A stretch of DNA of 64,000 nt from Albidovulum sediminis (lineage in GTDB: Bacteria; Pseudomonadota; Alphaproteobacteria; Rhodobacterales; Rhodobacteraceae). The position numbers and the translations under genes were made by a program. Positions 7,742-24,455 of this stretch are shown in pieces; the first letter of the stretch is position 1; every line of letters begins with the position of its first letter. The notes under the pieces are model-generated. The model had not been told where the DNA came from. It did not search any database and worked only from the letters and a program-made list of their open reading frames with translations. The stretch spans positions 2,282,245-2,346,244 of the forward strand of contig NZ_JAOCQF010000001.1 of assembly GCF_025380365.1 (NCBI RefSeq), written 5' to 3'.

Positions 7742-9340
7742 TCAGCCCCGGGTGCGGGTGAATCGGAGGGGCGCGCGCGCCGCGGCTGGCGACGGCGGAG
7801 GTTCAGGTGGCGCAGGCTCGGATTGCGGCGCAGGCTCGGGCACCCGCGCAGCAGGGGAAGGCGACGGCCGTGCGGCATACTCCCGGCAGGCGAATCCCGC
7901 CAGCGAACCCGCGATCAGCCAGGTGACGGGCACGATCGTTGCATTGGGAATGGCATCCAGCAGGTTGGCCGCCAGGATCAGGCACAGGCCAGCCGTCACG
8001 AAGGTGAGTTGCCCGGCCTTCCTGCGGCGCGCAAGGAAGATCAGCGGCACCGCCAGAAGTCCGTAGCGCGCCAGGTAGCCGAGCCAGCCCGTGACCCCGA
8101 TCGTGATGATCCAGTCGCCATCGGTCACGCTGTCGTCGTCTCCCGTCACCGGGTCGAAGATCCGGTTTCTGCCCCAGCTTCCCCATCCGAAAAGAGGCTT
8201 GAGGTTGGCCCGCGCCAGAAGCTCGTCTTCGTTGTCCAATCGGTACTTGAAGGACGCGGCGCGTTCGGCGTTGAAGGAGTTGACCGTCTCGTAGACATAC
8301 TGGACGGGCGACAGTCCGCTGCCGCGTAGGACGGGATAGATGATCACCAGCGTTGCGATCACCGCAGCGAAGACCGTGATCGGCCTCTTGCCCGCGGCGA
8401 TGAGAACGGCACCGAAGCCGATCGCGATCGCAAGCGCCCCGAGAGACTTCGACAGGACAAGGGTCATGAACATCCAGGCCGCCGCCAGGATCCAGTTCGC
8501 ACTTCCCTTCCGTTCCGCTCTGGCCTGCCGCCAGAGCGCGACGGCGCCGAAGACCGTCACGGCAAGGTACATCGACAGGGCAAGCCCATGGCCCAGAAAC
8601 ACGATCGGTCGGAAACCGCCCTCGCGCATGTGCTGGGAGAACTGGTGCTGAAAGAACCCGTAGATCCAGGTGTTGAGCTGCGGGCTCATCCGCACTTCGA
8701 ACAGCGCACCCAGCGAATAGACCAGCCCCGATAGGACAAGCAGCATGGTCAGCACATGTTGTTCCCTAGGGCCGGCCATGTAGCGCCAGCCGATCAGGAA
8801 CGGCAGAAGGTATATTCCCTCGGCCAGGGCCATCGAGAATGCATCGTAGAGCCGCAGCCCGGGCAGGAACCTCGGGCCGAAGACCAGCGGCTCCGGATTG
8901 GTGAGCGCGGTGAAGAAAGGGGCGATCAGGGTCAGGACAAACAGCGACAGAAGGATCGCGCGGGCGACCCTGTCCCGGCCGGCCGCTTCAGCGAATTGCC
9001 CGCCCTGCGCATCTCGGTTCTGGATCGTGACGCGCTGGCCGGTCCCGTGTTCCGCAATCGGCCGCTGACGTGTCGCCTGAAGCACTGCCGCGCCGCCGCT
9101 GCCCGCGCGAAGGGCCCGGTCCGGCATGACAAGGCAAAGGATCCCTGTGAACATGGCGGGGATCAGTGTCTTGTCCACCACCGGCAGGATCGGCAGATCA
9201 AAGCCCGCCCGAACCGGCAGGAACAGGTAGCCGCCGATGATCGACAGCGCGATCGCATGCGCCCGGGGAAGAAGCGCGAAGAAGCAGACCATGACCAGAG
9301 GCCAGCAGAAAAGCGCGATATAGGCAAAGGAGTTGGGCAT
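7742..9340 (-). CDS. O-antigen polymerase/ligase-like multi-pass membrane protein
   Basis: This 532-residue protein has about ten to twelve hydrophobic helices from the first residues (FAYIALFCWPLVMVCFFALL) and a large periplasmic loop in the middle of the second half. The loop includes KPLFGWGSWGRNRIFDP and a nearby TDGDWIITIGVTGWLGYL, similar to the 'G.G.G......HN.yl......G..G' region of Wzy/WaaL-type proteins. The last 55 residues are proline/alanine-rich and probably cytosolic. Wzy/WaaL proteins polymerise undecaprenyl-linked repeat units or ligate glycans. It is the last gene of the minus-strand PKS-NRPS operon, 46 nt after the SGNH-like gene. No Wzx flippase is visible in the window. 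Confidence 0.65.
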   Translation of the reverse strand: MPNSFAYIALFCWPLVMVCFFALLPRAHAIALSIIGGYLFLPVRAGFDLPILPVVDKTLIPAMFTGILCLVMPDRALRAGSGGAAVLQATRQRPIAEHGTGQRVTIQNRDAQGGQFAEAAGRDRVARAILLSLFVLTLIAPFFTALTNPEPLVFGPRFLPGLRLYDAFSMALAEGIYLLPFLIGWRYMAGPREQHVLTMLLVLSGLVYSLGALFEVRMSPQLNTWIYGFFQHQFSQHMREGGFRPIVFLGHGLALSMYLAVTVFGAVALWRQARAERKGSANWILAAAWMFMTLVLSKSLGALAIAIGFGAVLIAAGKRPITVFAAVIATLVIIYPVLRGSGLSPVQYVYETVNSFNAERAASFKYRLDNEDELLARANLKPLFGWGSWGRNRIFDPVTGDDDSVTDGDWIITIGVTGWLGYLARYGLLAVPLIFLARRRKAGQLTFVTAGLCLILAANLLDAIPNATIVPVTWLIAGSLAGFACREYAARPSPSPAARVPEPAPQSEPAPPEPPPSPAAARAPLRFTRTRG

Positions 9341-9386
9341 CAGCCTTGGCGCGCCCCCGTTGCTCGATCTGTTTGCCCGGCTACCG

Positions 9387-10367
9387 TCAATTCCGTGCCA
9401 GTCCCGTTTCGGGCAAGGTGCCGGCCACCTCGCGTATCATGAGCCACAGGGCGCGCCGGTCCAGGTCGGCCGGAAGGTCGGCCATGGTTCCGTCGGCGCG
9501 CCGGATTTCCTGCATCAGTCCCGGCGGCTCGACCCCGTATAGAACCGCATGATGGGTCAGCGCCACCAGAAAACACCCCAGGTCGCCGATGTGGATCGGG
9601 TCCAGGTCGCCGTTCGCGGTCCGTGCGAAGAACTCCTCGCGGCTGCGTATGCCGGGAACCGTTCCCGACTCGGCCGCGCGGGCGATCCGGGCCAGGGCCT
9701 GCCCCGCGGGGATCAGATAGATGGGCGCGCCACCCTGCCAGGCTGCCGCCCCGCGCATCATCTCTCCGATCCAGTAGCGGGGCAGGTCGCGGTCAAGACG
9801 GACCAGCCAGCCGCCCTCGTCGTTCAGCCAGTGCCAGGTTTCGTAGAGATAGACCCGCACGTCGGGGTTTCCCTGCCGGGCGAGCCCTGCCCAAAGCGCC
9901 AGATAGGCGGGGCCTGCCTCCTCCTCGATCGAGGTCCGAATCTCGACGCGTTCGGTCAGGATCACCGCGTCGTAATCGCCGCTGGCGAGCGCCTCCTTCG
10001 CGGGGCGGAACCGGTCGTGGGCATTGTCCTCGGCATATCCCTCGATCGGGATGTGGTCTTCCCAGTGCGCTCGAAGCGTCGTTCCCCGGCCGATCTGGCT
10101 TTCATAGCGGTGCCCCGGACCTGCAAGCTGCGCAAGCATGGCCGGCATGTCGTGGCCGACGAGGCTGTGACCCAGGTGAAAGACGCGCAGCGGACGGGAC
10201 GGCGGATCAAGCGGGCGGTCATAAGCCCTGTTGAACGCGTCCCAGTCCAACGGGCGCCGGGCCGGTGGCAACGTCGGGTCACGTCTGAGGCGACGCCAGG
10301 CGACGGCCCCGGCGGCCAGCGCCCCGGCAGCGACCAGTGCAGCGAAGATCAGCGACCGGCGCATCAT
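9387..10367 (-). CDS. Membrane-anchored SGNH-hydrolase-like protein
   Basis: This 326-residue protein has an N-terminal hydrophobic segment (residues about 4-24) followed by basic residues, suggesting a single-pass anchor with the rest outside the cytoplasmic membrane. Two motifs fit the SGNH/GDSL fold: FHLGHSLVGHD (candidate nucleophile Ser68, in place of the GDSL block) and DPIHIGDLG (Asp256, His259, the block-V D..H pair). In polysaccharide loci such proteins act as acetylesterases, acyltransferases or acyl-binding modifiers (AlgX/AlgJ type). Its start overlaps the phosphopantetheinyl transferase stop by 4 nt, so it is co-translated with the NRPS-PKS genes. It may move or remove an acyl group on the glycan; that is inference. 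Confidence 0.55.
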   Translation of the reverse strand: MMRRSLIFAALVAAGALAAGAVAWRRLRRDPTLPPARRPLDWDAFNRAYDRPLDPPSRPLRVFHLGHSLVGHDMPAMLAQLAGPGHRYESQIGRGTTLRAHWEDHIPIEGYAEDNAHDRFRPAKEALASGDYDAVILTERVEIRTSIEEEAGPAYLALWAGLARQGNPDVRVYLYETWHWLNDEGGWLVRLDRDLPRYWIGEMMRGAAAWQGGAPIYLIPAGQALARIARAAESGTVPGIRSREEFFARTANGDLDPIHIGDLGCFLVALTHHAVLYGVEPPGLMQEIRRADGTMADLPADLDRRALWLMIREVAGTLPETGLARN

Positions 10368-11059
10368 CCTTCGCCCGCCGCACCAACCTGCGCCGTCACA
10401 CAGAAAGCCGCGAGAAGCAGCCCCCCGCTCCGGGCCGCGCGCCCCTCGATCCGGGCACCCGCGGCAAACGGTGCCACCTTTCGCGTGAAGGTGGCTGTCA
10501 GACGGTCCCCCGCACCCACCGCGATGTCGAGTGTATCAAACCCGAAGAGCGCTTGCGTTAGCGCATACTGGCATTTGTAGGCCGCTTCCTTGGCCACGAA
10601 GATCAGCCGGGCGGCCCGGGCGGGGTGGGCCATGGCCGCGCACCAGCGCCGCTCCTCGGGGTTCAGGACAATCTCTTCCACGCCCGCCGGCAGGGGTTCG
10701 TCAGGCTCCGCGTCTATGCCGACCGCAGCAAGGGCCGTCACCGGGGCGACCGCCGCCATTGCCAGGGCGCCGGTATGGGTGATCGAGCCCGTGACCGCTT
10801 CCGGCCATTCCGGGGAACGGTCGGCGCGCATCGGTATCGCTGACGGCGGCAAGCCAAGTTCGGCCATCGCGCGGCGCGCGGCACGTCTGCCGGCGGCGAA
10901 CTCCGCCACACGCGCCGGAACCGCTCGGCCCATGGCGACCTCTTCCGTTGGCCAGAGCCCGTCGGTGTTCCGCACGACAGGGGCCATGGCGACGGCGGCG
11001 CCGGCCGGCAGAAGCGTGCGCATCGCGGCGGAGATGTCGGCCACGACCCCCATCCTCAT
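10364..11059 (-). CDS. 4'-phosphopantetheinyl transferase (EntD/Sfp type)
   Basis: This 231-residue protein has the three motifs of Sfp/EntD transferases: GSITHT (91-96), GIDAEPDEP (114-122, metal-binding region) and FVAKEAAYKCQYA (154-166, with Lys157, Glu158 and Lys162). These enzymes attach the phosphopantetheine arm of CoA to carrier proteins. The obvious targets are the PCP of the NRPS (Ser1453) and the ACP of the PKS (Ser1793) in the same operon. The ATG at 11057-11059 overlaps the NRPS stop codon (ATGA), supporting translational coupling. Presence of a dedicated activator in the operon argues that the assembly line is functional. Confidence 0.88.
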   Translation of the reverse strand: MRMGVVADISAAMRTLLPAGAAVAMAPVVRNTDGLWPTEEVAMGRAVPARVAEFAAGRRAARRAMAELGLPPSAIPMRADRSPEWPEAVTGSITHTGALAMAAVAPVTALAAVGIDAEPDEPLPAGVEEIVLNPEERRWCAAMAHPARAARLIFVAKEAAYKCQYALTQALFGFDTLDIAVGAGDRLTATFTRKVAPFAAGARIEGRAARSGGLLLAAFCVTAQVGAAGEG

Positions 11060-14000
11060 GCGCCGCGACCCGCGCGAAGCGCACGACGCTTCGACATCGC
11101 ATCCGCCCGCATCGCCGCGCGGTCATTCGGGACGGCCGCCATGTGCAGGCCGGGCGCGTTCGCGGGGCGCGCGTCCAGATGACGGGCCAGAGCCGAAAGG
11201 GTCGGGAAGCGGAAGATGTCGGTGATCGACAGTTTCGTGCCGCCGAGCGCGGCGCGGATGTCGCGATGCGCCTGCACCGCCAGCAGCGAATGCCCCCCGA
11301 GGGCAAAGAAATTGTCCTCGGCTCCGACCTTGGGCAGGTTCAGGATGCGACACCAGATGCCGGCGATGGTCTCCTCGACCCCGGCGGCAGGTGGCACGAA
11401 GTCAGCTGTGGCCACCTCCGCCGCAGCCTGCGAGGGTGCGGGAAGTGCCTTGCGGTCGACCTTTCCGTTGGGCGTCAGCGGCATTTCCGGCAGGCGGACG
11501 ACATGCGCGGGCACCATGTGGGCCGGAAGCCGGGACTTCAGGTCGGCCGCAAGACCTTCGGCCGCGAATCCCTCCGCCGCGGTCACGTAGACCACCAGAC
11601 GCAGGTCGCCCGGAACATCCTCGCGCGCGACGACCACGGCCTGCCGCACGAAGGGCGCCGCTTCGGCAGCGGCTTCGATTTCACCCAGTTCAATCCGGTA
11701 ACCGCGGATCTTTACCTGATGGTCAAGCCGTCCCAGGAAGTCGAAGCGCCCGTCCGCGCGCTGCCGTACCAGATCGCCGGTGCGATACATGCGACCACCG
11801 TTGAACGGGTCCGGGCGGAACCGCTCCTCGGTCAGGTCGTCACGCTTCCAGTATCCGCGCGCCACTCCGTCGCCGCCGATCCACAGCTCGCCCGCAACGC
11901 CCAGCGGCACCGGAGCGCATTCCGGATCGAGAACGTAAAGCCGGGTGTTGGCCACGGGATGGCCCACCGGGGCGACGGCAGCCCCGGACTCGGCCGGCCC
12001 CACGGCAGACCAGATCGTCGTTTCGGTCGGGCCGTACATGTTCATAAGACGCGCCCGCGTCGCCTCGGAAAGATCGGCGACCAGCGCCCCGGGAAGCGCC
12101 TCGCCCCCGATCATCAGGTCGGTGAGCCCGCCAAGGGCCAGACGCGACTCAGCGTTCGTCACCAGCATCCGCGCCATTGACGGCGTGCATTGCAGATGCG
12201 TGACGCCATGCCGGGCGATCTGCGCGGCGATGGAGTAGTCCTCCGCCTCTGCCGGCGCTGTGTCGTTGGCGCGGCGCAGCACCTCGGCCAGCGGAACCAG
12301 ACCGTCAAGAACGGTCTGAACCGGAATACCGTAATCGATCAGGCAGGCGATTTCCCCCACCCCGATGCGCTTCAGTTCCTCCACCCGCACGAGGCAATCC
12401 TCGACGGTGCCGAAAAGGCCCGAGTCCTCGAAGTAGCGCTGGAAGGCGAAGTCGAGCACACCCTCCAGCTCCTCCTCGCTCAGCGACCGCAGGTCGATGT
12501 CCATCGGGTTGGTGACGCCTTGCGGCTTCTTGAAGGCGGGGAAGGCCCAGGCATATTGCTTGATCAGCCCCGCGGCCGAACGCAGGTAATCCTTCATCGG
12601 CCCGCGTGCCGTCTCGCGCGCGGCGTCGCGGTCGGCGGCAACATAGGTGTGCAGCATCAGCGTCACGGTGTGACGGGCCGGATCGTGCCCCGCATCGCGC
12701 AGCGCCTGGTGGTAAAGCCGGATCTTGCCCGCCACCTCCTCGACCGACTGGCCGAGAAGATGGGTCAGCACGTTCGCGCCGACCGCCCCGGCCTCGCGCC
12801 AGGTTTCGGGGTTGCCCGCCGTCGTTACCCAGATCGGCACCTCGCGCGATACCGGGCGCGGCTGCGTCACCACCGCGAAGGGCTTGCCGGACGCCGTGGG
12901 AAACTCCACCGCCTCGCCGCGCCACAGGCGGCGGACCTTGTCGATGGCGTCGAACATCGCCGCCTTGTTCGCGGGTGGCGTGTTTTCCGGCCTGAGCACG
13001 AAATCGTCGGGTTGCCAGCCCGAGGCGATGGCAAGGCCCGCGCGCCCGCTCGTCAGGTTGTCGATGACTGCCCATTCCTCGGCGATGCGGGCGGGATGGT
13101 GCAGCGGCGCGACGCAGGACCCCGCCCGCACCGAGAGGTTCTGCGTCACCGCGGCGACCGCCGCGCCCGTGACCGAAGGGTTGGGATAGGGGCCGCCAAA
13201 GGCGTGGAAATGCCGCTCGGGCGTCCAGACGGCGCAAAATCCGTTCCGGTCCGCGAACTTCGCCCCCTCCAGCAGAAGATCGTACTTGGCCGGCCCCACC
13301 CCGTCGTCGTTGCCCCAGTAGTAAAGGCTGAACTCCATCCCGCGGAAGGAAGGGGCCGCGGCCCCGCCGGACACCATCGCGCGATCTGCATCGCCCATGA
13401 TCACCACGCGGAAGCCGCGCGCCAGCGTCCAGAACAGTTCGAGCACCGAGATGTCGAACGACAGCGATGTGACCGCCAGCCATGTGCCGGGCGGGTCGTG
13501 GCGCACGTGCGCGTCCATGCCCACAAAAAAGTTCTGGACGTTCCGGTGCTCGATCATCACGCCCTTGGGGCGTCCGGTCGAACCCGAGGTGTAGATCATG
13601 TAGGCCAGGTCGGTTCCGGCCACCGGCACCTCGGGGTTCCGCGTCCCCGCCGCACCCAACCGCGGATCGTCGTCGATCGTCAGGACCACGGCGTCGCTGG
13701 CGGGCAGGCTGCCGGCCAGCGCGCTTTCCGTCACGATGACCGGGCATCCCGAATCCTCGACGTAAAGCGCGATGCGGTCGGCCGGATAGGCCGGATCGAG
13801 CGGGACATAGGCACCGCCTGCCTTCTGGATCGCGAGCGCACCGACCAGCAGGGACGGCGAACGCCGGGCACTCAGCCCCACGAGCGTTCCGGGGCCGACC
13901 CCCATGTCACCCAGGACATGGGCGACGCGGTTTGCCCGTTCGTTCAGTTCGCGATAGGTCAGGCTCTCACCCTCATGGATCAGCGCCACCGCATCCGGCG

Positions 14001-15645
14001 TGCGCGCCACCTGCGCCTCGAACGCGCGATGGATGCAAAGATCGGGGTCGAAATCGGCGTCGGTCCGGTTCCATTCCTTGAGCAGCAGCGCCGCTTCGCT
14101 GTCCGGCATCGGTGGCAGCGACGAAAGGCCGGTTCCGGACTGCGCTTCGTCCAGCACTCGGGCCAGATGCGAAATCCGGGCCGCGAACATGGACGCCGTC
14201 GCCGGATCGAGACGTTCGGCGTCAAAATGCAGGCCCGCCCCCTCCGCCGAAAGCGACAGCGTGACGACACTGCCCTCGACCGGTGCATCCGCCCCGAGAT
14301 TGAGCGCGACCGCCGGTGGAGCGGACCTGCCGATGGAGGGATCGCGCAGAACAAGGTCGCAGGCGAAGGCCGGGCACTTCACTGCGCTGGCAAGGTCCGA
14401 CCTGAAAGCCTGAAGAAAATCGCCGGCGGCAGATTCCGCCCCGGCGCGCAGCGGCACCCAGTCCGACAGGTATCCCTTCGCCTGAGGGCCGCCGGCCAGA
14501 TGGAAGGCCAGATCCATAGGCTCCCCACCACCATAGGCGCGCGCGAAAAGCGCCAGTGCAACCGCGCCCCGGGCTGCATCGCCGCCGGCGATGTCGCACG
14601 CGATCCGGCGCCAGGAAGTTCTGCCGGTAGACGGCCGGGCCAAGGGCAGGTCCACCGGGCGAAGGGACCGCATCCGTTCGCGCCAGTAGCCTTCACCTCG
14701 AACGACCGCAGCCAAGGCCTCGGTCAGCGCGGCCGCCTCGTCATCGGCTGGCGCGGACAGCAGCTGCCCCACCAGATCGAGCGTGCGCGGGCTGACCGGC
14801 CGGCCATCCATGTCACGCAGACCGCTGAGCATCACGGCGCCCTGTCCGCAGGCAACCGCAAGCCCTTCGTCATCGGCCGAGAGGACCAGCCCCGCCGGTC
14901 CCTCCCCCTGTGCCGGTTCGGCGGCCCCGACCGCCAGGACCCTGCCGCCCGCGGCGATCTTCGGCACTGCGAGCGGGTTCCAGTAGCCGCCATGGTCGAG
15001 CGCGCGCACGAAACGCGCCACGTTATCGGCGGTAGCGGCAAAGTCTATCACCGCTGCCGCACGGGGCCGGTCGTCACGACCGTGCCAGGTGCGGTGCGTC
15101 AGATCCTGCGCGCGCGGCTGCAGCGTGCCCGCCCCGATCGACGCGACCAGAGCGCCGAAGCTTTCGATCGCCGCCTCGAAACACCGGGTGTTGAGCGTCA
15201 GTGCCGTTTCCGCGGGGCCGATGTCGAATTCCCGCGCCTCGAGGATGGCGCCTTCGTCAATCCCGCCCTCGATCAGGTGCCAGGCGATACCATGGTGCGT
15301 TTCACCCTGAAGCAGCGCCCAGACAGGTGCATTCAGCCCGGCGTGCCGCGGCAGAGGCCCGTCGTGAAAGTTGATCGCCCCATTGCGCGCGGCCGCCACC
15401 ATGGCCTTCGGCAGGACGTGCAGGTTCGCGACGGAAAAGAGCCAGTCGTAACCCGCCCCTTCAAGCCGGTCTGCGACATCCGCCGATTGCTCATCTGCCC
15501 GCAATCCTCGGTCGCGTGCCCAGCGTGCGACATCCGGACTGCGCGTCACGACCGCAACCACGTCGTTGCCCGCCGCGATCCAGAGTTCCGCGCACTGGAT
15601 GGTCAGGGATTCGCTGCCGACGAAGAGAGCCGAAGGGCGTGTCAT
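11056..15645 (-). CDS. NRPS: formyltransferase - half condensation - adenylation split by luciferase-like monooxygenase - PCP
   Basis: A 1529-residue synthetase. Residues 1-320 form a formyltransferase domain with the catalytic trio Asn92, His94 (INFHDGPLPRHAG) and Asp130 (GGIDEGAIL). Residues about 330-525 resemble only the C-terminal half of a condensation domain; no HHxxxDG is present. The adenylation domain starts near 530, with core A3 YTSGSTGRPKG (685-695) and A4 SFDISVLELF (729-738). It is then interrupted at about 765-1120 by a luciferase-like FMN monooxygenase (MupA/Atu3671-type insert) and resumes with HLQCTPS and MYGPTETT to NGKVDRKAL (1393-1401). A PCP follows with GGHSLLAV (Ser1453). 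Aligning to GrsA by eye gives specificity residues D-I-L-Q-M-G-M-I-W-K, very close to the glycine code DILQLGLIWK. There is no C-domain or TE, which fits an initiation module of the F-A-PCP kind known from linear gramicidin synthesis. It overlaps the GT2 and PPTase genes by 4 nt each. Confidence 0.9.
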   Translation of the reverse strand: MTRPSALFVGSESLTIQCAELWIAAGNDVVAVVTRSPDVARWARDRGLRADEQSADVADRLEGAGYDWLFSVANLHVLPKAMVAAARNGAINFHDGPLPRHAGLNAPVWALLQGETHHGIAWHLIEGGIDEGAILEAREFDIGPAETALTLNTRCFEAAIESFGALVASIGAGTLQPRAQDLTHRTWHGRDDRPRAAAVIDFAATADNVARFVRALDHGGYWNPLAVPKIAAGGRVLAVGAAEPAQGEGPAGLVLSADDEGLAVACGQGAVMLSGLRDMDGRPVSPRTLDLVGQLLSAPADDEAAALTEALAAVVRGEGYWRERMRSLRPVDLPLARPSTGRTSWRRIACDIAGGDAARGAVALALFARAYGGGEPMDLAFHLAGGPQAKGYLSDWVPLRAGAESAAGDFLQAFRSDLASAVKCPAFACDLVLRDPSIGRSAPPAVALNLGADAPVEGSVVTLSLSAEGAGLHFDAERLDPATASMFAARISHLARVLDEAQSGTGLSSLPPMPDSEAALLLKEWNRTDADFDPDLCIHRAFEAQVARTPDAVALIHEGESLTYRELNERANRVAHVLGDMGVGPGTLVGLSARRSPSLLVGALAIQKAGGAYVPLDPAYPADRIALYVEDSGCPVIVTESALAGSLPASDAVVLTIDDDPRLGAAGTRNPEVPVAGTDLAYMIYTSGSTGRPKGVMIEHRNVQNFFVGMDAHVRHDPPGTWLAVTSLSFDISVLELFWTLARGFRVVIMGDADRAMVSGGAAAPSFRGMEFSLYYWGNDDGVGPAKYDLLLEGAKFADRNGFCAVWTPERHFHAFGGPYPNPSVTGAAVAAVTQNLSVRAGSCVAPLHHPARIAEEWAVIDNLTSGRAGLAIASGWQPDDFVLRPENTPPANKAAMFDAIDKVRRLWRGEAVEFPTASGKPFAVVTQPRPVSREVPIWVTTAGNPETWREAGAVGANVLTHLLGQSVEEVAGKIRLYHQALRDAGHDPARHTVTLMLHTYVAADRDAARETARGPMKDYLRSAAGLIKQYAWAFPAFKKPQGVTNPMDIDLRSLSEEELEGVLDFAFQRYFEDSGLFGTVEDCLVRVEELKRIGVGEIACLIDYGIPVQTVLDGLVPLAEVLRRANDTAPAEAEDYSIAAQIARHGVTHLQCTPSMARMLVTNAESRLALGGLTDLMIGGEALPGALVADLSEATRARLMNMYGPTETTIWSAVGPAESGAAVAPVGHPVANTRLYVLDPECAPVPLGVAGELWIGGDGVARGYWKRDDLTEERFRPDPFNGGRMYRTGDLVRQRADGRFDFLGRLDHQVKIRGYRIELGEIEAAAEAAPFVRQAVVVAREDVPGDLRLVVYVTAAEGFAAEGLAADLKSRLPAHMVPAHVVRLPEMPLTPNGKVDRKALPAPSQAAAEVATADFVPPAAGVEETIAGIWCRILNLPKVGAEDNFFALGGHSLLAVQAHRDIRAALGGTKLSITDIFRFPTLSALARHLDARPANAPGLHMAAVPNDRAAMRADAMSKRRALRAGRGA

Positions 15646-16637
15646 GAGTCACTCCGTACCGGGGCGGCACCTGGCGTTGCCAGATCGGCCACGCCGATTC
15701 GCCAGCGGGTTCTGAAACCATGCGCAAGCAGATCGCGCAGGAAATGGGGCGGGTTCTGTTGCGCCCTCCGGCTGACAAGCCGACGCAACCCGAGCACGAG
15801 GCATCCGGCGGCTCGCGCCATCGTCGCGGCAATGGCATATCCGCGCCCATGGTTCTTTGCGAAATAGAGGAACCGGCTGTCGAACCAGTACCCCGGCAGG
15901 CGCCTGAGGTTGGACACGCCGGTCGATACGGAGCCGATGTGGGTCACATCGCTGTCGTGCACATGGTCCGTCGCAAAGCCTGCCCGCGCGGCCCTCAGGC
16001 AAAGGTCGGTTTCCTCGAAGTAGAGAAAGAACGCCTCGTCGAAAAGGCCGATGCGGTCCAGCACCGACCGACGGATCAGCATGGAGGCCCCCGAAACCCA
16101 GTCGACACGCGTGGTTTCGGACGGTGTCGGCAGGGGCACGATCCGATCGGCCAGAAGGTGCGAGATCGGGCCGGTCTTGGCGGCATCCTCGAACTCCGAC
16201 CCGAGGCTGAAGAACCGAAAGGCCGAGGCATGCGGGGCGCCGTCCGGGCCATGCACATGGCTGCCCGCGATGGCCGTTTCCGGGTGCCGCCTCATGTGGT
16301 CGAGCAATGCCCGTATCGCCCCTCTGGCCGGAAAGGCATCCGGGTTCAGCACGTAGACGAAATCGGGCGCCGACCCGTCGGGCAGGCCCGCCCTGATGGC
16401 AACGTTGTTGCCCGCGCCATAGCCGCCGTTGCGGCCGGACTGGATCACGCTGACCCGGAGAAGGCCAAGCCGCGCGACACCGGAGCGCAGCGCCTCCTCC
16501 GACCCGTCGCCCGAGGCGTTGTCGACGATGGTGATGGCGCCCTCGATGCCTTCCATCGCCGCTGCGGCGGCCCTTGCCGCCTCAAGCGCCATCTCTGCGG
16601 TACGCCAGTTGACGATGCTGACAAGAACGGTCGCCAT
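15642..16637 (-). CDS. Family 2 glycosyltransferase (rhamnosyltransferase-like)
   Basis: A 331-residue GT-A fold enzyme. It opens with VLVSIVNWRTAEMALEA, then ITIVDNASGDGSEE and GGYGAGNNVAIRAG, the nucleotide-sugar-binding pattern of GT2 rhamnosyltransferases. YVLNPDAFP supplies the NxD metal site. A C-terminal hydrophobic stretch (about 275-295) may anchor it to the membrane. It sits between the PKS (3-nt gap) and the NRPS (4-nt overlap), so it is made in step with both. This suggests that the polyketide/peptide product, or the glycan that carries it, is glycosylated. The donor sugar cannot be read from the sequence. Confidence 0.85.
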   Translation of the reverse strand: MATVLVSIVNWRTAEMALEAARAAAAAMEGIEGAITIVDNASGDGSEEALRSGVARLGLLRVSVIQSGRNGGYGAGNNVAIRAGLPDGSAPDFVYVLNPDAFPARGAIRALLDHMRRHPETAIAGSHVHGPDGAPHASAFRFFSLGSEFEDAAKTGPISHLLADRIVPLPTPSETTRVDWVSGASMLIRRSVLDRIGLFDEAFFLYFEETDLCLRAARAGFATDHVHDSDVTHIGSVSTGVSNLRRLPGYWFDSRFLYFAKNHGRGYAIAATMARAAGCLVLGLRRLVSRRAQQNPPHFLRDLLAHGFRTRWRIGVADLATPGAAPVRSDS

Positions 16638-16640
16638 GGC

Positions 16641-19600
16641 TCACTCCGCCGCCGAACGCATCGGATGCGCATCTGCGTCGGCACTGTCGAGCACCTGCCG
16701 CAACTTCTGCGCCAGAACGCGAACGTTCGGTTCCAGCACCATGGTGTCATGGTCTCCGGGAATTTCGATGACTTCGAGGTTGTCGGCGTAGCGGCCAATC
16801 CCGTTGTCGTCATAGACGTAGCACCGGTCCTGATCGACCCAGCGCCCTCCCCACACCTGCCAGTGAAGATCAACCGGCGGGCGCAGGAGCGCGGTGCGGC
16901 CACGGCGTGGCGTCATCTCGAACTTCACGACAGCGCGCAGGAAGGCCTTCTCGACCTCGGTCAGCAATGCCTCGCGCCCGGTACCCTGTTCGGCGCCCTC
17001 GCGCTGCGCCTGCTTCCACGCCGCGCGGTCCCGATACCATTGGAGAAGATATCCAGGCCCCGCGGCGCGGAACTGGTTCAGCTTGATGCGAAGACGATCA
17101 GCCGCGCTCAGGTCCGGACGGGTGGGCAGCGGCGTGTCGAGCAGGACGAGAAGCGACACCTCCTCTCCCTCCTCCTCCAGCTGGCGGGCCATCTCCCAGG
17201 CGGTCAGACCGCCACCCGAATAACCACCAAGCACATAGGGCCCGTGCGGCTGCACCTGCCGGATCTCGGCCAGGCAATCGCGGGCGGCATCGACGAGGGA
17301 TTCGTGCGGTGCATCCTCGTCGTAAAGGCCGCGGGCCTGAAGCCCGTACCAGGGCCTGTCCCCGCCCAGCATCTTGGCGAGGAAGCGCAGGTTCAGAATG
17401 TTTCCCGACATCCCGGCGACGATGAAGAACGGCGCCTTGGGCTTTCCTTCCGCCTTGTTCATGGGAACCAGGTGGGTGAACCGGCGCTGCGGAATCACGG
17501 CGGCACCGGCCCCGTCGGTCGACTGCTCGGATGGCCCCACGCGCGCCTCGATCAGGGCGGCACAGGCGGCGATCGTCGGCGCCTCGAACAGCACCGAGAT
17601 CGGGAAGTCGACGGCATAGGTCTTGCGGATCATCGCGAACAGCCGGACCGCGATCAGCGAATGGCCGCCGAGGTCAAAGAAACTGTCCTCGACCCCGACC
17701 TGCGCGACGCCCAGAAGGTCTTGCCAGAATCCGACCAGCGTCCGCTCGATCTCGTTGCGGGGCTCGACATAGGCCGTATCGAGCGCCGGCCGCTCGAATC
17801 CCTGCCCTCCGCCGGTCTCGGCAGGGCGAAGCGTGTCGGCCTGCGCGACCAGCGCGGGCAGATCCATCGAGGATACGACGACCTGCGGCAGGCCAAGCGC
17901 CAGCGCGCGACCGAACGCCAGGGCTCCGTCCCTTGCGGGGATGCCCTGCGACAGGTTGTGGCGCAGACGCTCTTCGGCGGCGGAAACCGGGCGAAGGGCG
18001 GCAGGCCCGTCCTCGGGGAACTCGACATCCTGCGCGGACGGAACGGCTTCAAGGCCCAGCACCCCGTCCATCCGGCGCATGGTGAACCCTTCGATGTCGA
18101 TGCACACCGCCCCCGTGGCGTCCATGATCGTCACGTCGAACCGCGCAAAGGACGTGTCCGCCCGATTGTCGTCCGCATTGCGGACCCAGCTGACCACCTC
18201 GGCGGGCAAGGGCCGGTGGACGCGGATCGACGCGTAGGACAGCGGCACCCAGAGATGCGTCGGCGCATAGCCTGCGACAAGGTCCATCGCCCAGCCCGTC
18301 GCCAGGTCCATGAGCGCGGGGTGGATGACGCAGCCCGCTTCCAGGTCGGAGCGGAACGTCTCGGGCAGCGACAGATGCGCGACCCCCTCGCCCTTGCCGA
18401 AGGCGCGGCGATTGACCACGCGCCAGCGCGGGCCGAAGATCAGGTGTTCTTCCTGTGGGGTCCGCAGGCCCTGCCCCACCTCGACCTTCGCCCCGCAGCG
18501 CGAGAGCAGACCGAGCACATCCAGCCGTCCTGCCGGGGCGGCAAGGGGAAGTATCCGAGCCTCTGCGTTCAGGCCAAAGCCGGTGCGCCCGTCGCGTTCG
18601 ACGCTGCTTCGCACGTCAAGGCTGTAACCGCCATCCTCGCGCCGAATCCGCGCGCGCACCGCCCGCGATCCCGACTCCGGGACCGTCAGCGGATGCAGGA
18701 AGTAGAGATCCCTTATCTCGAACGGGCCGGTCTCGTCCTGCGCCCTCATCGCCTCGGCCGCCAGTTCGATGAACCCGGTTCCGGGCAGAAGCGCCTGCCC
18801 CGCCCTGGTGCGGTGGCCATCGAGGAACCATCGCGCCACGGACCAGTTCGCCGTGAAAACGCGCGCGCCTGCCGCATCGAATGTCGCGGCATCCAGCATC
18901 GGCATGACCAGCGGCTCCACAGGCGCGGGCACGGGTGCCGCATAGGCCCCGGCCGCCATGCCGACATCCGACCAGATGCCCCAGTTGACCGCAACGACGC
19001 GCGTCCTGCCGCCCGCACGCGAGCGGGCCCAGGCGTTGAGGAACTCGTTCGCGGCGACATAGTCGACCTGGCCCGCCGGCGCGATCACCGTGGAGGTAGA
19101 GGCGAAGACGACCATCAGATCCAGGCTGCCGTCCGGAAACACCCGATCCAGTACCAGCGTGCCATGCACCTTCGGGGCAAGGACATCCTCGACGCTTTCG
19201 GGCGACTTCGCGAGGATCGGCGCGTCGTCGACCACACCCGCGGCGTGGATCAGCACGTCGACGCGGCCAAACGCGGCCTCTACCTGGCGCCGGGCCGCCT
19301 CCATATCCGGCAGGTTGCAGACGTCTCCGACCACGACGACGGGCGTGGCGCCGAGCGCTTCGAGACGGCGCAGCGCGCGGATCCGCTCGGCGCCCGCGTC
19401 CTGCGGCGGATGGGCGCGCAGATAGGCCTCCCAGCCCTCGCGCGGCGGAAGCGGGCGGCGCGTCAGAAGCGCGATCCGCGCGCCGCGTTCCACGACCAGG
19501 TTTTCGGCCAGCGTCAGGCCAATGCCGCCGAAGCCGCCGGTAATCAGGCAGACCGCACCCTCGCGCACGGGGTGTTCGGCATCGCCCAGAACAACAGGGC

Positions 19601-22600
19601 GCCAGGTCAACTCGTATCGCTTGCCCTCGCGCAGCGCCGCGGTCAGGTTCGACGGATCGGCCAGCAACTCCTCGATCACGGAATCCGCGATCCGGTCCAT
19701 CCCGGCATCGCCCTTCGCAGCCGCGGGCAAGGCCACATCGAGCGCGCTGCAGGTCACGCCCGGAAATTCCCTTGGAATGACGCGCAAGGGACCGAAAACC
19801 GTGGCCTTTTCCGGATCGGGCAGCCTTTCGTCGCGGACCTGCTGAACGCCGGTGGTCATGCAGGTCAGGTGCAGGGGATGCGGCAGGTCTGCCTCGCTCA
19901 TCGCCTGGGCGAGCGACAGGAGGCTCTGGAACCCCTGCTCCTGGTTGCGCATGAAAAAGCTCGATCCCAGCCGGAAGGTGCGCTCGGCTGTGACAAGCCA
20001 GAAATGTGCGATGCGATCCGGCTTGAACCCTTCGGCCGCCAGAACCTGGAACAGCCGGTCGTAGTCGACGCGCCCGCGCTCGGGCGAGATGCCATAGCTG
20101 TCGTCGCCAAGCCGCGCGAAGGAAAAGCCCACCCGAACCTCGACCACACGATGCCCGGCAGCGCGCAACCGCGCCACGACACGGTCCGACAGGCCGGTGT
20201 CATCGGAAAAGACCAGCCAGTCGTGGCGGGCGGCCTCTTCCAGCCGGTCGGCCTCGACTTCGCACTCGGCGGCACGCGGGCGCCAGTGCGGCTTCCAGCC
20301 CCACTTGCCGATATCCTCGATCCGCTCGGGCCAGCTTTCCTCAACCGGAGCGGCCGTCTTGCCGGGTTCGATGAAATAGGATTGGCGCTGGAACGGATAG
20401 GTCGGCAGCGGCACGCGATTGCGTCGCGCCTCACCCCAGAGCGGCGCCCAGTCCACCGGCACGCCCAGCGCCCAGAGACGGCCAAGCGTGGTGACGAACC
20501 AGATGTCGTCGGCGATTTCGTGGTCCTGGTGGCGAAGTGAGGACAGAACCTGGTTCGCCGGTACGCCGTTCGCCTGGATCAGCGACGACAGGGCGCGCCC
20601 CGGCCCGACCTCAAGGAACACCCGTCCGGGCCGCGCCATCAGCGTTCTGGCGCAGTCCGCAAACATCACTGTGTTGCGCAGGTGACGAACCCAGTAATCG
20701 GGGTCGGTCGCCTCGGCCGCCGTCAGGACCTGACCGGTGCGGTTCGAGATGATGGGCAGGGTCGGCGCGGACAGCCGGATCGAGCGAAGGTAGGCGCCAA
20801 AGCGATCCAGGATCGGCTCCAGCATCCGGCTGTGGGCGGCAATGTCGATCTGCACCCTCTGGGGCTCTATCTCCCGCGCTTTCAGCGCCGCCTCCAGCGC
20901 ATCGAGCGCCGACTGCGGCCCGGAGACGACGCAGAGATCCGGCGCATTCACCGAAGCCATGTCCAGATCGCCGGTCAGCAGCGGCCGCAGTTCAGCCTCC
21001 GGCAAGGGGACCGACAGCATGCCGCCCGGCGCGATGGTGTCGAACAGCTGGCCGCGCAGGTGCACAAGGCCAATGCAGTCCTCGAAGGACAGGACGCCGG
21101 CAAGGCAGGCCGCGGTGTTCTCGCCCATCGAATGACCGACCAGCGCCGCCGGCTCCACCCCCCAGCTCATCCACAGCTGGGCCAGCGCATATTCGGCGAT
21201 CATGATGAGCGGCAACTGGACCGACGGCCGCTTCAGCCGCTCGACCGCCTCGGCGCGGGTTTCGGGTCCGGGCAGCCAGATCGCGCGCAGATCATAGTCG
21301 AGTTTCGGCTGGAGGTGATCGAGTCCGCGGTCCATCCATTCGCGAAAGACGGGTTCGGTCTCGTAAAGATCACGCGCCATGCCGGCGTATTGCGCGCCGC
21401 CGCCCGGGAACATGAAAACGACCTCGGGCCGGGCGCCAAGGTGGGTATGGTTGAAGACGCGGCGGGTATCGCCGCTTTCCAGAAGGTCGGCCGCTTCCTG
21501 ATGGCTGGCGGCCACCACGACCCGGCGCCGGTCGAATGCGCGGCGGCCTTCCTTCTGCGTCCAGGCGATATCGGCCAGAGACTGTTCGGGGTGCACGCGC
21601 AAATGCGCGGCCAGATTGCCGCTCGCCTCGTCAAGCGCGGCTTTGGAGCGTGCCGACAGGACCAGAAGCTGAAATGGCCAGTCGCTGTCTTCCGATGCGG
21701 CGCGGGCAGGTGCCTCTTCCAGCACCGCGTGGGCGTTGGTACCGCCGACGCCAAGGCTGTTGACCGCGGCCCGGCGCGGCGCGCCAAGGGCCGGGAACTC
21801 CGACAGGCGGTCATTCACGCGGAAGGGCGAGGTCTCGAAGTCGATGGCCGGGTTCGGTTTTTCGTAGCCCAGGGACGGTGGCATCTGGCGATGATGAAGG
21901 GCCAGCGATGCCTTGATCAGGCTCGCCACGCCCGCCGCGGTGTCCAGATGGCCGATGTTGGTCTTGACCGAACCGATCCGGCAGAAACCCTCTTTGTCGG
22001 TCGTCTCGCGGAAAGCCTGCGTCAGGGCCGCAACCTCGATCGGGTCGCCCAGGTAGGTGCCGGTCCCGTGGCACTCGACATAGCCGATCGTTCCGGCATC
22101 GACACCGGCCACCGCATGCGCCTCGGCGATGGCGCGGGCCTGCCCGTCGACCGAAGGCGCCAGATAGCCGGCCTTGTCCGACCCGTCGTTGTTGATGGCG
22201 CTGCCCCTGATCACCGCCCAGATGTGGTCGCCGTCCGCGATGGCATCGCCAAGCCGGCGCAGAACCACACAGCCCGCGCCGGAGCCAAAGACAGTGCCCT
22301 GCGCGCGGTGGTCGAAGGCGTGGCAGTGCCCGTCCGGGGACAGCACTTCGCCCTCGGCATAAAGGTATCCGCGCGCATGTGGGATTTCGATCGTCACACC
22401 GCCCGCCAGCGCCATGTCGCATTCGCCGTTCAGAAGCGCCTGCGACGCAAGGTGCACGGCGACGAGCGAGGTGGAGCAGGCCGTCTGCACCGACAGGCTT
22501 GGCCCCTTCAGATCGAACACATGGCTGACGCGGGTGGACAGGAAATCCTTGTCGTTCCCGGTGTGCCTGAGCAGGAACATCCCTGTCGATTGCACGAGGT

Positions 22601-23036
22601 CGGGGTTCGAGCAGACGTTGAAGTAGAAATAGCTGCCCATGCCGCAGCCGGCATAGACGCCTACAGACCCCGCGAACCCTTCGGGCGTGTGCCCGGCGTT
22701 CTCCATCGCCTCCCACGCGGTTTCCAGGAACTGGCGGTGCTGGGGGTCCATGATTGCCGCTTCCTTGGGCGACAGCCCGAAGAACTCGGCGTCGAAGCGC
22801 TCGAACCCCTCAAGCGTCGCCGCGGCGCGTACGTAGTTGGGCGCCCGCATCCGCGCCGGGCTTTCCCCCGCCGCCGCAAGTTCGGCCTCGGTCAGTTCGC
22901 GGATCGATTCGACCCCGTCGCGCAGGTTCCTCCAGTAATCCTCGACCGAAGGGGCACCCGGCAGATGCGCGGCCATGCCGATGATGGCGATGTCATTGTC
23001 GCCTGCGGGAACCCTGTCTGACATTTCAGCCGGCAC
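16641..23036 (-). CDS. Type I polyketide synthase, KS-AT-KR-DH-ACP-TE
   Basis: A 2131-residue single-module PKS. KS: residues 14-440 with Cys187 (TACSTS), His323 (ECHGTGT) and His363 (KTNIGH). AT: about 540-850 with GHSMGE (Ser636) and His735 (AAHS). KR: about 910-1365, NADPH loop GGFGGIG (1167-1173), active-site Lys1289, Ser1313, Tyr1326, Asn1330, and a VDD near 1269-1271 suggesting a B-type ketoreductase. DH: about 1395-1660 with His1408 (LDGHRTRAGQALLPG) and Asp1577 (HPALMD). ACP: Ser1793 (GGHSLIAV). TE: Ser1940 (GGYSGGG), Asp1967, His2096. All catalytic residues I can check are present, so one round of extension, reduction, dehydration and release is predicted. DH after KR is unusual; the standard order is DH before KR. 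It heads the six-gene minus-strand operon. The AT specificity is uncertain (malonyl is most likely). Confidence 0.92.
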   Translation of the reverse strand: MPAEMSDRVPAGDNDIAIIGMAAHLPGAPSVEDYWRNLRDGVESIRELTEAELAAAGESPARMRAPNYVRAAATLEGFERFDAEFFGLSPKEAAIMDPQHRQFLETAWEAMENAGHTPEGFAGSVGVYAGCGMGSYFYFNVCSNPDLVQSTGMFLLRHTGNDKDFLSTRVSHVFDLKGPSLSVQTACSTSLVAVHLASQALLNGECDMALAGGVTIEIPHARGYLYAEGEVLSPDGHCHAFDHRAQGTVFGSGAGCVVLRRLGDAIADGDHIWAVIRGSAINNDGSDKAGYLAPSVDGQARAIAEAHAVAGVDAGTIGYVECHGTGTYLGDPIEVAALTQAFRETTDKEGFCRIGSVKTNIGHLDTAAGVASLIKASLALHHRQMPPSLGYEKPNPAIDFETSPFRVNDRLSEFPALGAPRRAAVNSLGVGGTNAHAVLEEAPARAASEDSDWPFQLLVLSARSKAALDEASGNLAAHLRVHPEQSLADIAWTQKEGRRAFDRRRVVVAASHQEAADLLESGDTRRVFNHTHLGARPEVVFMFPGGGAQYAGMARDLYETEPVFREWMDRGLDHLQPKLDYDLRAIWLPGPETRAEAVERLKRPSVQLPLIMIAEYALAQLWMSWGVEPAALVGHSMGENTAACLAGVLSFEDCIGLVHLRGQLFDTIAPGGMLSVPLPEAELRPLLTGDLDMASVNAPDLCVVSGPQSALDALEAALKAREIEPQRVQIDIAAHSRMLEPILDRFGAYLRSIRLSAPTLPIISNRTGQVLTAAEATDPDYWVRHLRNTVMFADCARTLMARPGRVFLEVGPGRALSSLIQANGVPANQVLSSLRHQDHEIADDIWFVTTLGRLWALGVPVDWAPLWGEARRNRVPLPTYPFQRQSYFIEPGKTAAPVEESWPERIEDIGKWGWKPHWRPRAAECEVEADRLEEAARHDWLVFSDDTGLSDRVVARLRAAGHRVVEVRVGFSFARLGDDSYGISPERGRVDYDRLFQVLAAEGFKPDRIAHFWLVTAERTFRLGSSFFMRNQEQGFQSLLSLAQAMSEADLPHPLHLTCMTTGVQQVRDERLPDPEKATVFGPLRVIPREFPGVTCSALDVALPAAAKGDAGMDRIADSVIEELLADPSNLTAALREGKRYELTWRPVVLGDAEHPVREGAVCLITGGFGGIGLTLAENLVVERGARIALLTRRPLPPREGWEAYLRAHPPQDAGAERIRALRRLEALGATPVVVVGDVCNLPDMEAARRQVEAAFGRVDVLIHAAGVVDDAPILAKSPESVEDVLAPKVHGTLVLDRVFPDGSLDLMVVFASTSTVIAPAGQVDYVAANEFLNAWARSRAGGRTRVVAVNWGIWSDVGMAAGAYAAPVPAPVEPLVMPMLDAATFDAAGARVFTANWSVARWFLDGHRTRAGQALLPGTGFIELAAEAMRAQDETGPFEIRDLYFLHPLTVPESGSRAVRARIRREDGGYSLDVRSSVERDGRTGFGLNAEARILPLAAPAGRLDVLGLLSRCGAKVEVGQGLRTPQEEHLIFGPRWRVVNRRAFGKGEGVAHLSLPETFRSDLEAGCVIHPALMDLATGWAMDLVAGYAPTHLWVPLSYASIRVHRPLPAEVVSWVRNADDNRADTSFARFDVTIMDATGAVCIDIEGFTMRRMDGVLGLEAVPSAQDVEFPEDGPAALRPVSAAEERLRHNLSQGIPARDGALAFGRALALGLPQVVVSSMDLPALVAQADTLRPAETGGGQGFERPALDTAYVEPRNEIERTLVGFWQDLLGVAQVGVEDSFFDLGGHSLIAVRLFAMIRKTYAVDFPISVLFEAPTIAACAALIEARVGPSEQSTDGAGAAVIPQRRFTHLVPMNKAEGKPKAPFFIVAGMSGNILNLRFLAKMLGGDRPWYGLQARGLYDEDAPHESLVDAARDCLAEIRQVQPHGPYVLGGYSGGGLTAWEMARQLEEEGEEVSLLVLLDTPLPTRPDLSAADRLRIKLNQFRAAGPGYLLQWYRDRAAWKQAQREGAEQGTGREALLTEVEKAFLRAVVKFEMTPRRGRTALLRPPVDLHWQVWGGRWVDQDRCYVYDDNGIGRYADNLEVIEIPGDHDTMVLEPNVRVLAQKLRQVLDSADADAHPMRSAAE

Positions 23037-23441
23037 TCTTACCTCTCACACCCAGGCGGAGTGTAGCATCCGGCCGCGCGAGTCCAAGGCCTTGGCAACG
23101 CCTCGCACAGGGCGCATGTCGCCCCCGAAGGCCACACGATGTCGGAACATTATGATTCCGTTGACTGACCACCATCCGTGCATCCCGGTCCTACGTGCCA
23201 TCCCCCACCGAACGCTGTCGCCAGCGCAGGAACAGTATCCCAGTCAAAATTGACTGTGCAGCGCCTGGAAACGAATTGCCAGCCGCGGCGTTTCAGCCAC
23301 CATCGCCGCAAGACTGCGGCGCATCTCCATATTCCCCCTCAAACCTTGCCAAGTGCATCAGAGAGAAGAAGAAATCTCTGGACATGCAGAGCAGGGCGGG
23401 CCTTCCCTTTCGTCACCAAGAACGCTGCCGGCAAGGAAACG
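23037..23441. promoter_or_regulatory. Divergent intergenic region between the PKS operon and a glycosyltransferase gene
   Basis: This 405-bp stretch separates the divergently transcribed PKS operon (minus) and GT2 gene (plus) and shows no coding gene. It must hold the promoter of the whole six-gene operon. On the minus strand a -10-like CATAAT lies at 23149-23154 but has no good -35 box at 16-18 bp, which would fit an activator-dependent promoter. TTGACTG occurs at 23161-23167 and again as one arm of the inverted repeat at 23241-23256. The half next to the GT2 gene shows nothing else I recognise. Confidence 0.4.
23241..23256. promoter_or_regulatory. Perfect 7-bp inverted repeat, candidate operator
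   Basis: CAGTCAA-AA-TTGACTG is a perfect dyad with a 2-bp centre, the geometry of a homodimeric regulator site. It lies about 200 bp upstream of both divergent genes. The arm TTGACTG recurs at 23161-23167, which could be a second half-site. No regulator gene is adjacent. Confidence 0.35.
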
Positions 23442-24455
23442 ATGACGACCCGCCATCCCGAGAGGAAACCCGAATCGGACAATGCCCCACCCAGGGTCGC
23501 GGCCGTGATCATCGGGCGCAACGAAGGCGCGCGACTGGTTGCCTGCCTCGCGTCGGTGGTCCCGCTGGTCGTCCGGACCGTCTATGTCGATTCGGGCTCG
23601 ACCGATGACAGCGTGGGCGAGGCGAGGCGCGCCGGTGCCGAAGTCATCGAACTGGACCTGTCGCGCCCCTTCACCGCCGCGCGTGCACGCAACGCGGGCC
23701 TTGCCGCGCTGCGCACCGGACCGCAGGTCGACCTTGTGCAGTTCATCGACGGCGACTGCCGGCTGGACCCCGGCTGGATCGGGCATGCGCTGACCTTTCT
23801 GGCGAGGACGCCCCGAGCGGTGGCCGTCTGCGGACGTCTGCATGAGGTTGATGTCAAAGCCTCGATCTACAACCGCCTTTGCGACTGGGAATGGGATACG
23901 CCGGTCGGCCGGACCGACGCCTGCGGCGGGATCGCCATGATGCGCCGCGAGGGTCTGGCCGAGGTCGGCGGTTTCCGGGAAGATCTGATCGCGGGCGAAG
24001 AACCCGACCTCTGTCAGCGCCTGATCGCGCGGGGCGGAGAGGTCTGGCGCCTCGACGCCGACATGGGCTTCCACGATGCCGCGATCTACCGGTTCGGTCA
24101 GTGGTGGCGGCGCAATGTCCGCGCCGGGCATGCCTTTGCCGAGGTCGGACGCCTCCACCCCAACCTCTATCCCGCGGCGCGGCGGCGCATGGTGTTCTGG
24201 GGCCTCGGCCTGCCCTTGGCCGCGGTGGCGGGCGCGCTCTGGTTTCCGCCGGCTGTCCTTGCGGTGGGTGCCCTCTATGCCGCCTCTGCCGGCCGCTCCA
24301 CCCTTCGCTTCCGGCGCCGCGGGTTTGCGCCCGCACAGGCGGCGAAGGCGGGGGCGCTGCTCACGCTGTCGAAGTTCTGCAACCTGCAGGGGGCGGTCCT
24401 TTACCTGCTTCGGCGCCTGCGCGGTGAAGCGAGCCGCATCATCGAATACAAGTGA
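23442..24455 (+). CDS. Family 2 glycosyltransferase with C-terminal membrane helices
   Basis: A 337-residue GT2 enzyme. AAVIIGRNEGARLVACLASV and VYVDSGSTDDS form the nucleotide-binding half, FIDGDCRLDPGW carries the DxD motif, and IAGEEPDLCQRL gives the acidic catalytic region (ED/GEEPD). Two hydrophobic segments near residues 255-300 suggest association with the inner membrane, as in processive or lipid-linked sugar transferases. I chose ATG 23442 (MTTRHPERKP) because it is preceded by AAGGAAACG and starts just before the GT2 fold. It is the only plus-strand gene in the cluster and is transcribed away from the PKS operon. Confidence 0.8.
   Translation: MTTRHPERKPESDNAPPRVAAVIIGRNEGARLVACLASVVPLVVRTVYVDSGSTDDSVGEARRAGAEVIELDLSRPFTAARARNAGLAALRTGPQVDLVQFIDGDCRLDPGWIGHALTFLARTPRAVAVCGRLHEVDVKASIYNRLCDWEWDTPVGRTDACGGIAMMRREGLAEVGGFREDLIAGEEPDLCQRLIARGGEVWRLDADMGFHDAAIYRFGQWWRRNVRAGHAFAEVGRLHPNLYPAARRRMVFWGLGLPLAAVAGALWFPPAVLAVGALYAASAGRSTLRFRRRGFAPAQAAKAGALLTLSKFCNLQGAVLYLLRRLRGEASRIIEYK

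Follow-up and report, generated by a model that had tools for sequence, protein, structure and literature searches.

The 64,000-nucleotide stretch of the Albidovulum sediminis genome analysed here (contig NZ_JAOCQF010000001.1, positions 2,282,245 to 2,346,244; hereafter the window) carries six consecutive minus-strand genes that encode, in order, a polyketide synthase (PKS), a family 2 glycosyltransferase (GT2), a nonribosomal peptide synthetase (NRPS), a phosphopantetheinyl transferase (PPTase), an SGNH-like protein and a Wzy-like protein. The intergenic gaps are 3, -4, -4, -4 and 46 nt, and both spacing and coordinates bear out an original prediction, made from the DNA letters alone, of a six-gene operon. 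Third-codon GC lies at 0.79-0.83 across all six genes, which fits their being coding sequences, and long open reading frames (ORFs) on the plus strand opposite them, such as 15720-20540, are taken to be mirror frames. The PKS-GT2-NRPS core of this operon recurs in many relatives, mostly amid exopolysaccharide genes, and this suggests that in Rhodobacterales and some other bacteria polyketide/peptide enzymes contribute a part of the surface polysaccharide or of its decoration.

The adenylation (A) domain of the NRPS is interrupted by a flavin mononucleotide (FMN)-dependent monooxygenase of the MupA/Atu3671 type, which is inserted between the motifs FDISVLELF and MYGPTE (domain limits in Table 1). 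A formyltransferase stands in front and a carrier domain behind. In an alignment of 87 sequences, comprising the window and L009-L094 with none dropped by a length filter, the formyltransferase active site (Asn-His-Asp) and the carrier serine are present in every one, and the monooxygenase is the best-conserved part of the protein (mean column identity 0.84). The A domain is predicted from its specificity code to activate glycine. In the window the code is D I L Q M G M I W K, compared with DILQLGLIWK for glycine; the code positions were mapped by motifs. Eight of the ten positions are identical in all 87 sequences, and the fifth is M in 68, F in 10, L in 8 and A in 1.

The least conserved part of the NRPS (0.44) is residues 300-530, a putative condensation-like (C-like) remnant identified by the look of its sequence and by the missing condensation motif HHxxxDG, which is found in 0 of 87 NRPSs. 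Structure matches for the NRPS model mostly cover residues 1-296 and not this region. The best sequence match of the protein in the PDB is LgrA, its formyltransferase match being weak at 26.9 bits, and a domain search found no thioesterase (TE) domain in the NRPS. A basic C-terminal tail (window 11056-11184) is common to many of the homologues and may be a docking element; a pattern drawn by eye from these same sequences, and so a lead only, occurs in 67/87 NRPS, 1/87 PKS, 0/86 GT2 and 0/77 PPTase ORFs.

The PKS is a single module with ketosynthase (KS), acyltransferase (AT), ketoreductase (KR), dehydratase (DH), acyl carrier protein (ACP) and TE domains. Its residues were checked in the 77 of 87 rows that reach at least 2000 aa, the ten short ones (L017, L018, L022, L030, L046, L049, L058, L070, L071 and L082) being contig-end cuts, broken frames or, for L071, a false match. 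The KS Cys-His-His, AT Ser, KR Tyr/Asn, DH His/Asp, ACP Ser and TE Ser/Asp/His are kept in all 77; two KR glycines are present in 75 and 71 of them, and one probed position near the KR serine is T, S or C. With the main catalytic residues invariant in all domains except the C-like one, the assembly line looks to be a working one that has been selected whole in nearly every relative. The SGNH-like protein has no Pfam match and a single N-terminal hydrophobic segment; its S67, D255 and H258 are invariant in 14 aligned sequences (alignment numbering, which is protein numbering minus one). The Wzy/WaaL-like protein has 10 hydrophobic segments.

The recurrence of these genes was followed in 80 loci, the best of 373 NRPS relatives from a collection of species genomes, a sample that leans to close relatives; gene presence was scored by tblastn at 1e-8. 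GT2 is present in 80 loci, the PKS in 79 and the PPTase in 71, followed by the Wzy-like gene in 39 and the SGNH gene in 16, and the GT2 lies between PKS and NRPS in 78. One of the other two, L071, starts beyond the expected PKS position. Where both ORFs were found, PKS and GT2 are adjacent in 79/85 cases, GT2 and NRPS in 83/85, and NRPS and PPTase in 75/76. All six genes occur together in 6 of 86 other loci, three of which (L009, L010, L090) keep the window's order. The core is thus PKS-GT2-NRPS, with the PPTase as its usual companion. This much of the originally predicted gene set stands, the SGNH and Wzy-like genes being variable members, and the search for the same gene order that had been proposed as a check found PKS-GT2-NRPS widespread rather than absent among relatives.

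PKS and NRPS relatives also lie on plasmids. In 17 plasmid records a relative matches the PKS along 80% or more of its length, and 15 of these also have the NRPS; the two lacking an NRPS match are from Tateyamaria, where the PKS lies near the record end, and Paracoccus, where the NRPS is annotated in pieces. Among the first six annotated plasmid regions (two Ruegeria, Parasedimentitalea, Paracoccus, Aminobacter and Shinella) the order PKS-GT2-NRPS is seen in four, and in all six the PKS-NRPS relatives sit among glycan genes: sugar transferases, flippases, WecB/TagA/CpsF transferases, a CpsD/CapB kinase, an O-antigen ligase and nucleotide-sugar enzymes. Seven further regions comprise three without annotation, two distant relatives (Aliiroseovarius and Nostoc) and the Tateyamaria and Paracoccus records just mentioned. 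In Paracoccus marcusii KGP (L126, 21576-22491) the NRPS region forms several annotated pieces beside a long PKS, by decay or sequencing error. Aliiroseovarius M344 (L103, 16450-30189) has another MupA/Atu3671-type NRPS, as well as an NRPS/PKS, close to VPLPA-CTERM and XrtD genes.

The association with polysaccharide genes was measured with nine families drawn from the window and the annotated loci. At least one of these families besides the core GT2 is found in 72 of the 80 loci, and in 62 of the 65 that exceed 24 kb. A relative of Wzx, Wzy, Wzc or WecG is found in 66/80 loci vs 0/20 controls, the latter being 20 kb stretches at round-number positions in genomes of the window's family. By family, Wzx-like proteins occur in 33 loci, Wzz/Wzc-like in 35 and Wzy-like in 39, the window having the Wzy-like one only. 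The three long loci with no family match (L013, L027, L088) each have a family 4 glycosyltransferase (GT4) gene, and L013 also has a PF02397 gene, according to a Pfam search of part of the ORFs. An independent marker, not drawn from these loci, is the PF02397 sugar transferase itself. The NRPS is found at E 1e-100 in 74 of 199 genomes of the window's family, and at 39 of the 76 loci in these 74 genomes PF02397 lies within 30 kb of it, vs 3.2 expected from random placement in 4 Mb. These counts support the link to a glycan that had been suspected from the gene order; attachment of the product to that glycan is what we infer.

The glycan locus in the window itself extends to about 34 kb. Upstream of the PKS are further glycosyltransferase genes, a WecB-type epimerase, a WecG/TagA/CpsF transferase, an exosortase of the XrtD type and a large protein with a calcium-binding repeat (Table 1). 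The second GT2 of this segment (29141..30190) shares 54% identity over 275 aa with a GT2 of L032 whose family occurs in 33/80 loci, and the large protein shares 35% identity with a family found in 25/80. These genes, like the formyltransferase and the inserted monooxygenase, had been overlooked in the original prediction. A tRNA-Arg gene (33950-34026, minus strand) borders the locus, with a YidC gene further on (39789-41642), so a tRNA-side island is possible. On the other flank, a DAO-type oxidoreductase gene (6330-7685) was considered as an operon member and rejected because it is present in 1 of 80 loci. The gene at 3958-5229, present in two, looks FolC-like by its Mur-ligase domains. The 776-aa ORF at 1552-3882 was discarded, as its translation is not gene-like and has no Pfam match.

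Table 1. Genes of the operon and the adjoining glycan locus (window nucleotides), with domains of the NRPS (protein residues).
Feature	Position	Strand	Evidence and remarks
Type I PKS, one module KS-AT-KR-DH-ACP-TE, 2131 aa	16641..23036	-	Pfam/NCBIfam domains
GT2 glycosyltransferase, 331 aa, between PKS and NRPS	15642..16637	-	PF13641/PF00535
NRPS, A domain interrupted by FMN monooxygenase	11056..15645	-	domain searches
NRPS formyltransferase	residues about 1-296
NRPS putative C-like remnant	residues about 300-530
NRPS A domain, two parts	residues 542-755 and 1135-1395
NRPS MupA/Atu3671-type FMN monooxygenase insert	residues 772-1122		TIGR04020, 485 bits
NRPS carrier	residues 1426-1490
PPTase, 231 aa	10364..11059	-	PF17837 + PF01648
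Membrane-anchored SGNH-fold protein, 326 aa	9387..10367	-	fold match and invariant residues
Wzy/WaaL-like polymerase or ligase, 532 aa	7742..9340	-	Wzy_C 27.8 bits, below gathering threshold
GT2, MftF-like	23178..24455	+	PF00535; TIGR03965 82.6 bits, under cut-off 280; homologue in 39/80 loci
Protein with weak GH127/cyclase-type matches	24489..25637	-	Pfam matches below cut-off
WecB, non-hydrolysing UDP-N-acetylglucosamine 2-epimerase	25679..26830	-	PF02350 368 bits; TIGR00236 458 bits, cut-off 210
WecG/TagA/CpsF glycosyltransferase	26844..27734	-	PF03808; TIGR00696 over cut-off
GT4 glycosyltransferase	27864..29159	-	PF00534; homologue in 28/80 loci
GT2 glycosyltransferase, true start probably further in	29141..30190	-	PF00535
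VPLPA-CTERM exosortase XrtD with EpsI domain	30114..31751	-	TIGR04152 575.8 bits, cut-off 400
Large protein with C-terminal calcium-binding repeat	31828..33984	-	PF00353

We consider it probable that the operon forms the branch of a Wzx/Wzy-type exopolysaccharide locus that provides an acyl unit: NRPS and PKS would make this small unit, which would then join the polysaccharide. The PPTase would activate the carriers of both enzymes. The NRPS would serve as a loading module: its A domain would activate glycine, the formyltransferase would formylate the glycine amine and the inserted monooxygenase would oxidise the alpha-carbon. The PKS would take over this starter, add one malonate, reduce and dehydrate it, and its TE would release or hand over a short N-formyl-amino unsaturated acid. 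The NRPS is placed first and the PKS second since the former has no recognisable working condensation domain and nothing for release, and the latter ends in a release domain but lacks one for loading. The GT2 would then join the acyl unit with a sugar, or build the sugar that carries it, and the product would enter the exopolysaccharide pathway, where the periplasmic SGNH protein may trim or transfer acyl groups and the Wzy-like protein may polymerise. Transfer to a sugar would be the likeliest fate of the unit because a GT2 lies inside the operon and a glycan locus surrounds it.

Several observations count against this reading. The GT2 precedes the PKS in L027, the PKS and NRPS of Aminobacter and Shinella are divergent with no glycosyltransferase between them, and two of the six proteins given a role, SGNH and Wzy-like, vary from locus to locus. 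The nine query families come from the same loci in which they were then counted, which favours them, and the 80 loci are those most similar to the window's NRPS. In the window's own genome the two PF02397 genes lie on other contigs, and thus none is within 30 kb of the NRPS; the queries used also found no relative of Wzx (the flippase) or of Wzc and chain-length proteins in the window. By annotation, the distant A-monooxygenase relatives in Aliiroseovarius and Nostoc belong to other NRPS/PKS clusters that are not for polysaccharides. Two genomes of the window's family, G078 (C42:24498-27827) and G089 (C17:149204-152443), have NRPS relatives whose match is split in two and leaves out the monooxygenase; both are outside the alignment, and an uninterrupted form of the same NRPS may exist. 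Moreover, the product is a predicted one. A hydroxylated N-acyl-glycine can fall apart, as the passage on myxothiazol in PMC10204066 describes, and such a breakdown of hydroxyglycine makes the simple product given above uncertain.

A bolder form of this scheme, which we put forward only tentatively, has the assembly-line residue inside the repeat unit. The GT2 would glycosylate an N-formyl-glycyl-ketide, or transfer it to a lipid-linked sugar, and the polymerase would link the units into a hybrid polymer.

It is also conceivable, though unlikely, that the PKS product is an anchor, lipid or carrier-like, for building or holding the polysaccharide, leaving the glycan itself without any polyketide or peptide residue. 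Such an anchor role has reportedly been proposed for the PKSs of the capsule-locus genes rkpA and wcbR. These genes, the nearest precedent for this reading, do lie in capsular polysaccharide clusters, as stated in the relevant section of PMC3908369, and a mono-modular PKS like the present one could work iteratively. On the other hand, KR and DH without an enoylreductase would yield a polyene and not a saturated lipid, and the loading module, glycine-type with its formyltransferase and oxygenase, would suit a polar unit better. Of the ten Comamonadaceae loci, six have an extra downstream NRPS. In L011 (18146-24073, plus strand) it lies between the PPTase and SGNH genes and comprises acyl-ligase-like, carrier, condensation, adenylation, carrier and thioesterase domains, the other five being judged as its relatives. 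With a fatty-acyl-ligase-like domain at hand, a lipid is probably involved there and the product may include a fatty acid. That said, the N-terminal part of the extra NRPS matches 0 of 77 non-Comamonadaceae sequences (window plus L009-L094) at E 1e-20, which argues against an anchor. By eye, the A-domain code of the extra NRPS in L011 also looks glycine-like.

A soluble secondary metabolite, such as a siderophore or signal, whose genes have come by chance into exopolysaccharide islands that gather foreign genes, seems to us more doubtful still. In its favour, the NRPS monooxygenase is of the MupA/Atu3671 family, to which we take the fabrubactin enzyme FbnE to belong, and relatives of the A-monooxygenase unit occur in other NRPS/PKS clusters. 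The distribution is patchy within the family, and the only same-genus genome checked gave no NRPS match. Against it stand the association with glycan genes and the GT2 embedded in nearly every copy of the operon. Furthermore, none of 30 genomes has a TonB receptor (PF00593) within 30 kb of the NRPS, these being a subset of the 74 with the NRPS, mostly those with a linked PF02397 gene; in 10 of the 30, the window's own included, PF00593 is absent altogether. In the passage of PMC12971057 on the FbnE model (a model not run here), hits are said to fall in clusters caught by other markers or else to be seemingly false for lack of metallophore genes; hits outside the known type are reported to lack such genes. 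The siderophore reading was lowered on these two grounds, the missing nearby receptor and that passage.

That the assembly line serves the exosortase, making an acceptor to which XrtD joins VPLPA-CTERM proteins, is very improbable: XrtD does lie 14 kb from the NRPS in the window, 18 kb from it in G113, near the NRPS in Ruegeria conchae and near the PKS in Tateyamaria, and a relative of the XrtA/PEP-CTERM system ATPase precedes the PKS in 8/10 Comamonadaceae loci (in L011 at 3709-4608, plus strand, TIGR03015 279.5 bits against a cut-off of 324.5), yet among 199 genomes 74 have the NRPS, 44 have XrtD over cut-off and 8 have both, vs 16 expected if independent, and any exosortase (PF09721) occurs in 21 of the 74. 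XrtD as a general functional partner, pursued for the neighbour at 30114-31751, is largely refuted by these co-occurrence counts.

The assembly-line scheme invites comparison with several known systems. The precedent for the proposed oxidation is given by the myxothiazol and melithiazol glycine modules, of MtaG and MelG, whose insertion lies between motifs a4 and a5, the same place as in the present NRPS. As presented in the pertinent part of PMC10204066, they likewise have a glycine-type A domain with an inserted FMN monooxygenase, and their hydroxyglycine then breaks down to an amide plus a glyoxyl thioester. The chain is terminated there as an amide, and a TE follows. The NRPS described here has a formyltransferase in front, lacks HHxxxDG throughout the alignment and has no TE in the same protein. 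The initiation module of LgrA, from the linear gramicidin pathway, shares the order formyltransferase, A domain, carrier (F-A-PCP, PCP being the peptidyl carrier protein), and its Asn-His-Asp site is kept here; the C-like remnant and the monooxygenase insert are extra in the present protein, which would probably pass its product to a PKS. Mycobacterial glycopeptidolipids and cyanobacterial heterocyst glycolipids are glycosylated products of PKS and/or NRPS enzymes displayed at the cell surface, made by other gene sets with no Wzx/Wzy-type locus. The fabrubactin and anachelin pathways presumably include a PKS part and a monooxygenase of the same family. In the text of PMC12971057 that deals with them they are NRPS siderophore pathways with a flavin monooxygenase, whereas the genes described here have glycan genes around them and, as noted, no nearby TonB receptor. 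RkpA and WcbR, compared by description only, are type I PKSs inside a polysaccharide locus, and the section of PMC3908369 that describes them mentions no NRPS, formyltransferase or monooxygenase partner.

Taken singly, the parts of this system are already known: capsule loci with PKS genes, NRPS-PKS hybrids and glycine modules interrupted by an oxygenase. Searches of the open literature, judged by titles and the openings of abstracts and with most subscription journals outside their scope, turned up no description of their combination, in which a formylating and oxidising loading module and one PKS module occur with a glycosyltransferase embedded between them in an exopolysaccharide locus, and no characterised pathway with this gene set was recognised there, in agreement with the original prediction. 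For the unusual acyl groups and non-sugar residues in polysaccharides of bacteria, a biosynthetic route is often lacking. A conserved NRPS-PKS line dedicated to this task, travelling with exopolysaccharide loci in the window's family, Rhizobiales and Comamonadaceae, would give a genetic handle on such groups, and would connect the polysaccharide and natural-product fields, which are usually mined apart. It would also imply that surface polymers, and not free small molecules, may be the products of some "cryptic" PKS-NRPS clusters in Rhodobacterales.

A draw of 289 genomes from across the class gave 6 with an NRPS match at 1e-150, and five of the six belong to the window's family (its own genome included). 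In a FastTree tree of the 87 rows, a quick method that leaves several forks open and includes some records that are metagenome-assembled genomes (MAGs), nine Hydrogenophaga (Betaproteobacteria) loci form one group among Rhodobacterales rows, with a Curvibacter bin elsewhere, and the branching suggests transfer between classes. One row, L070, comes from a record titled as an Exiguobacterium profundum MAG; the operon is present and falls within Rhodobacterales in the tree, so the label or bin is probably wrong.

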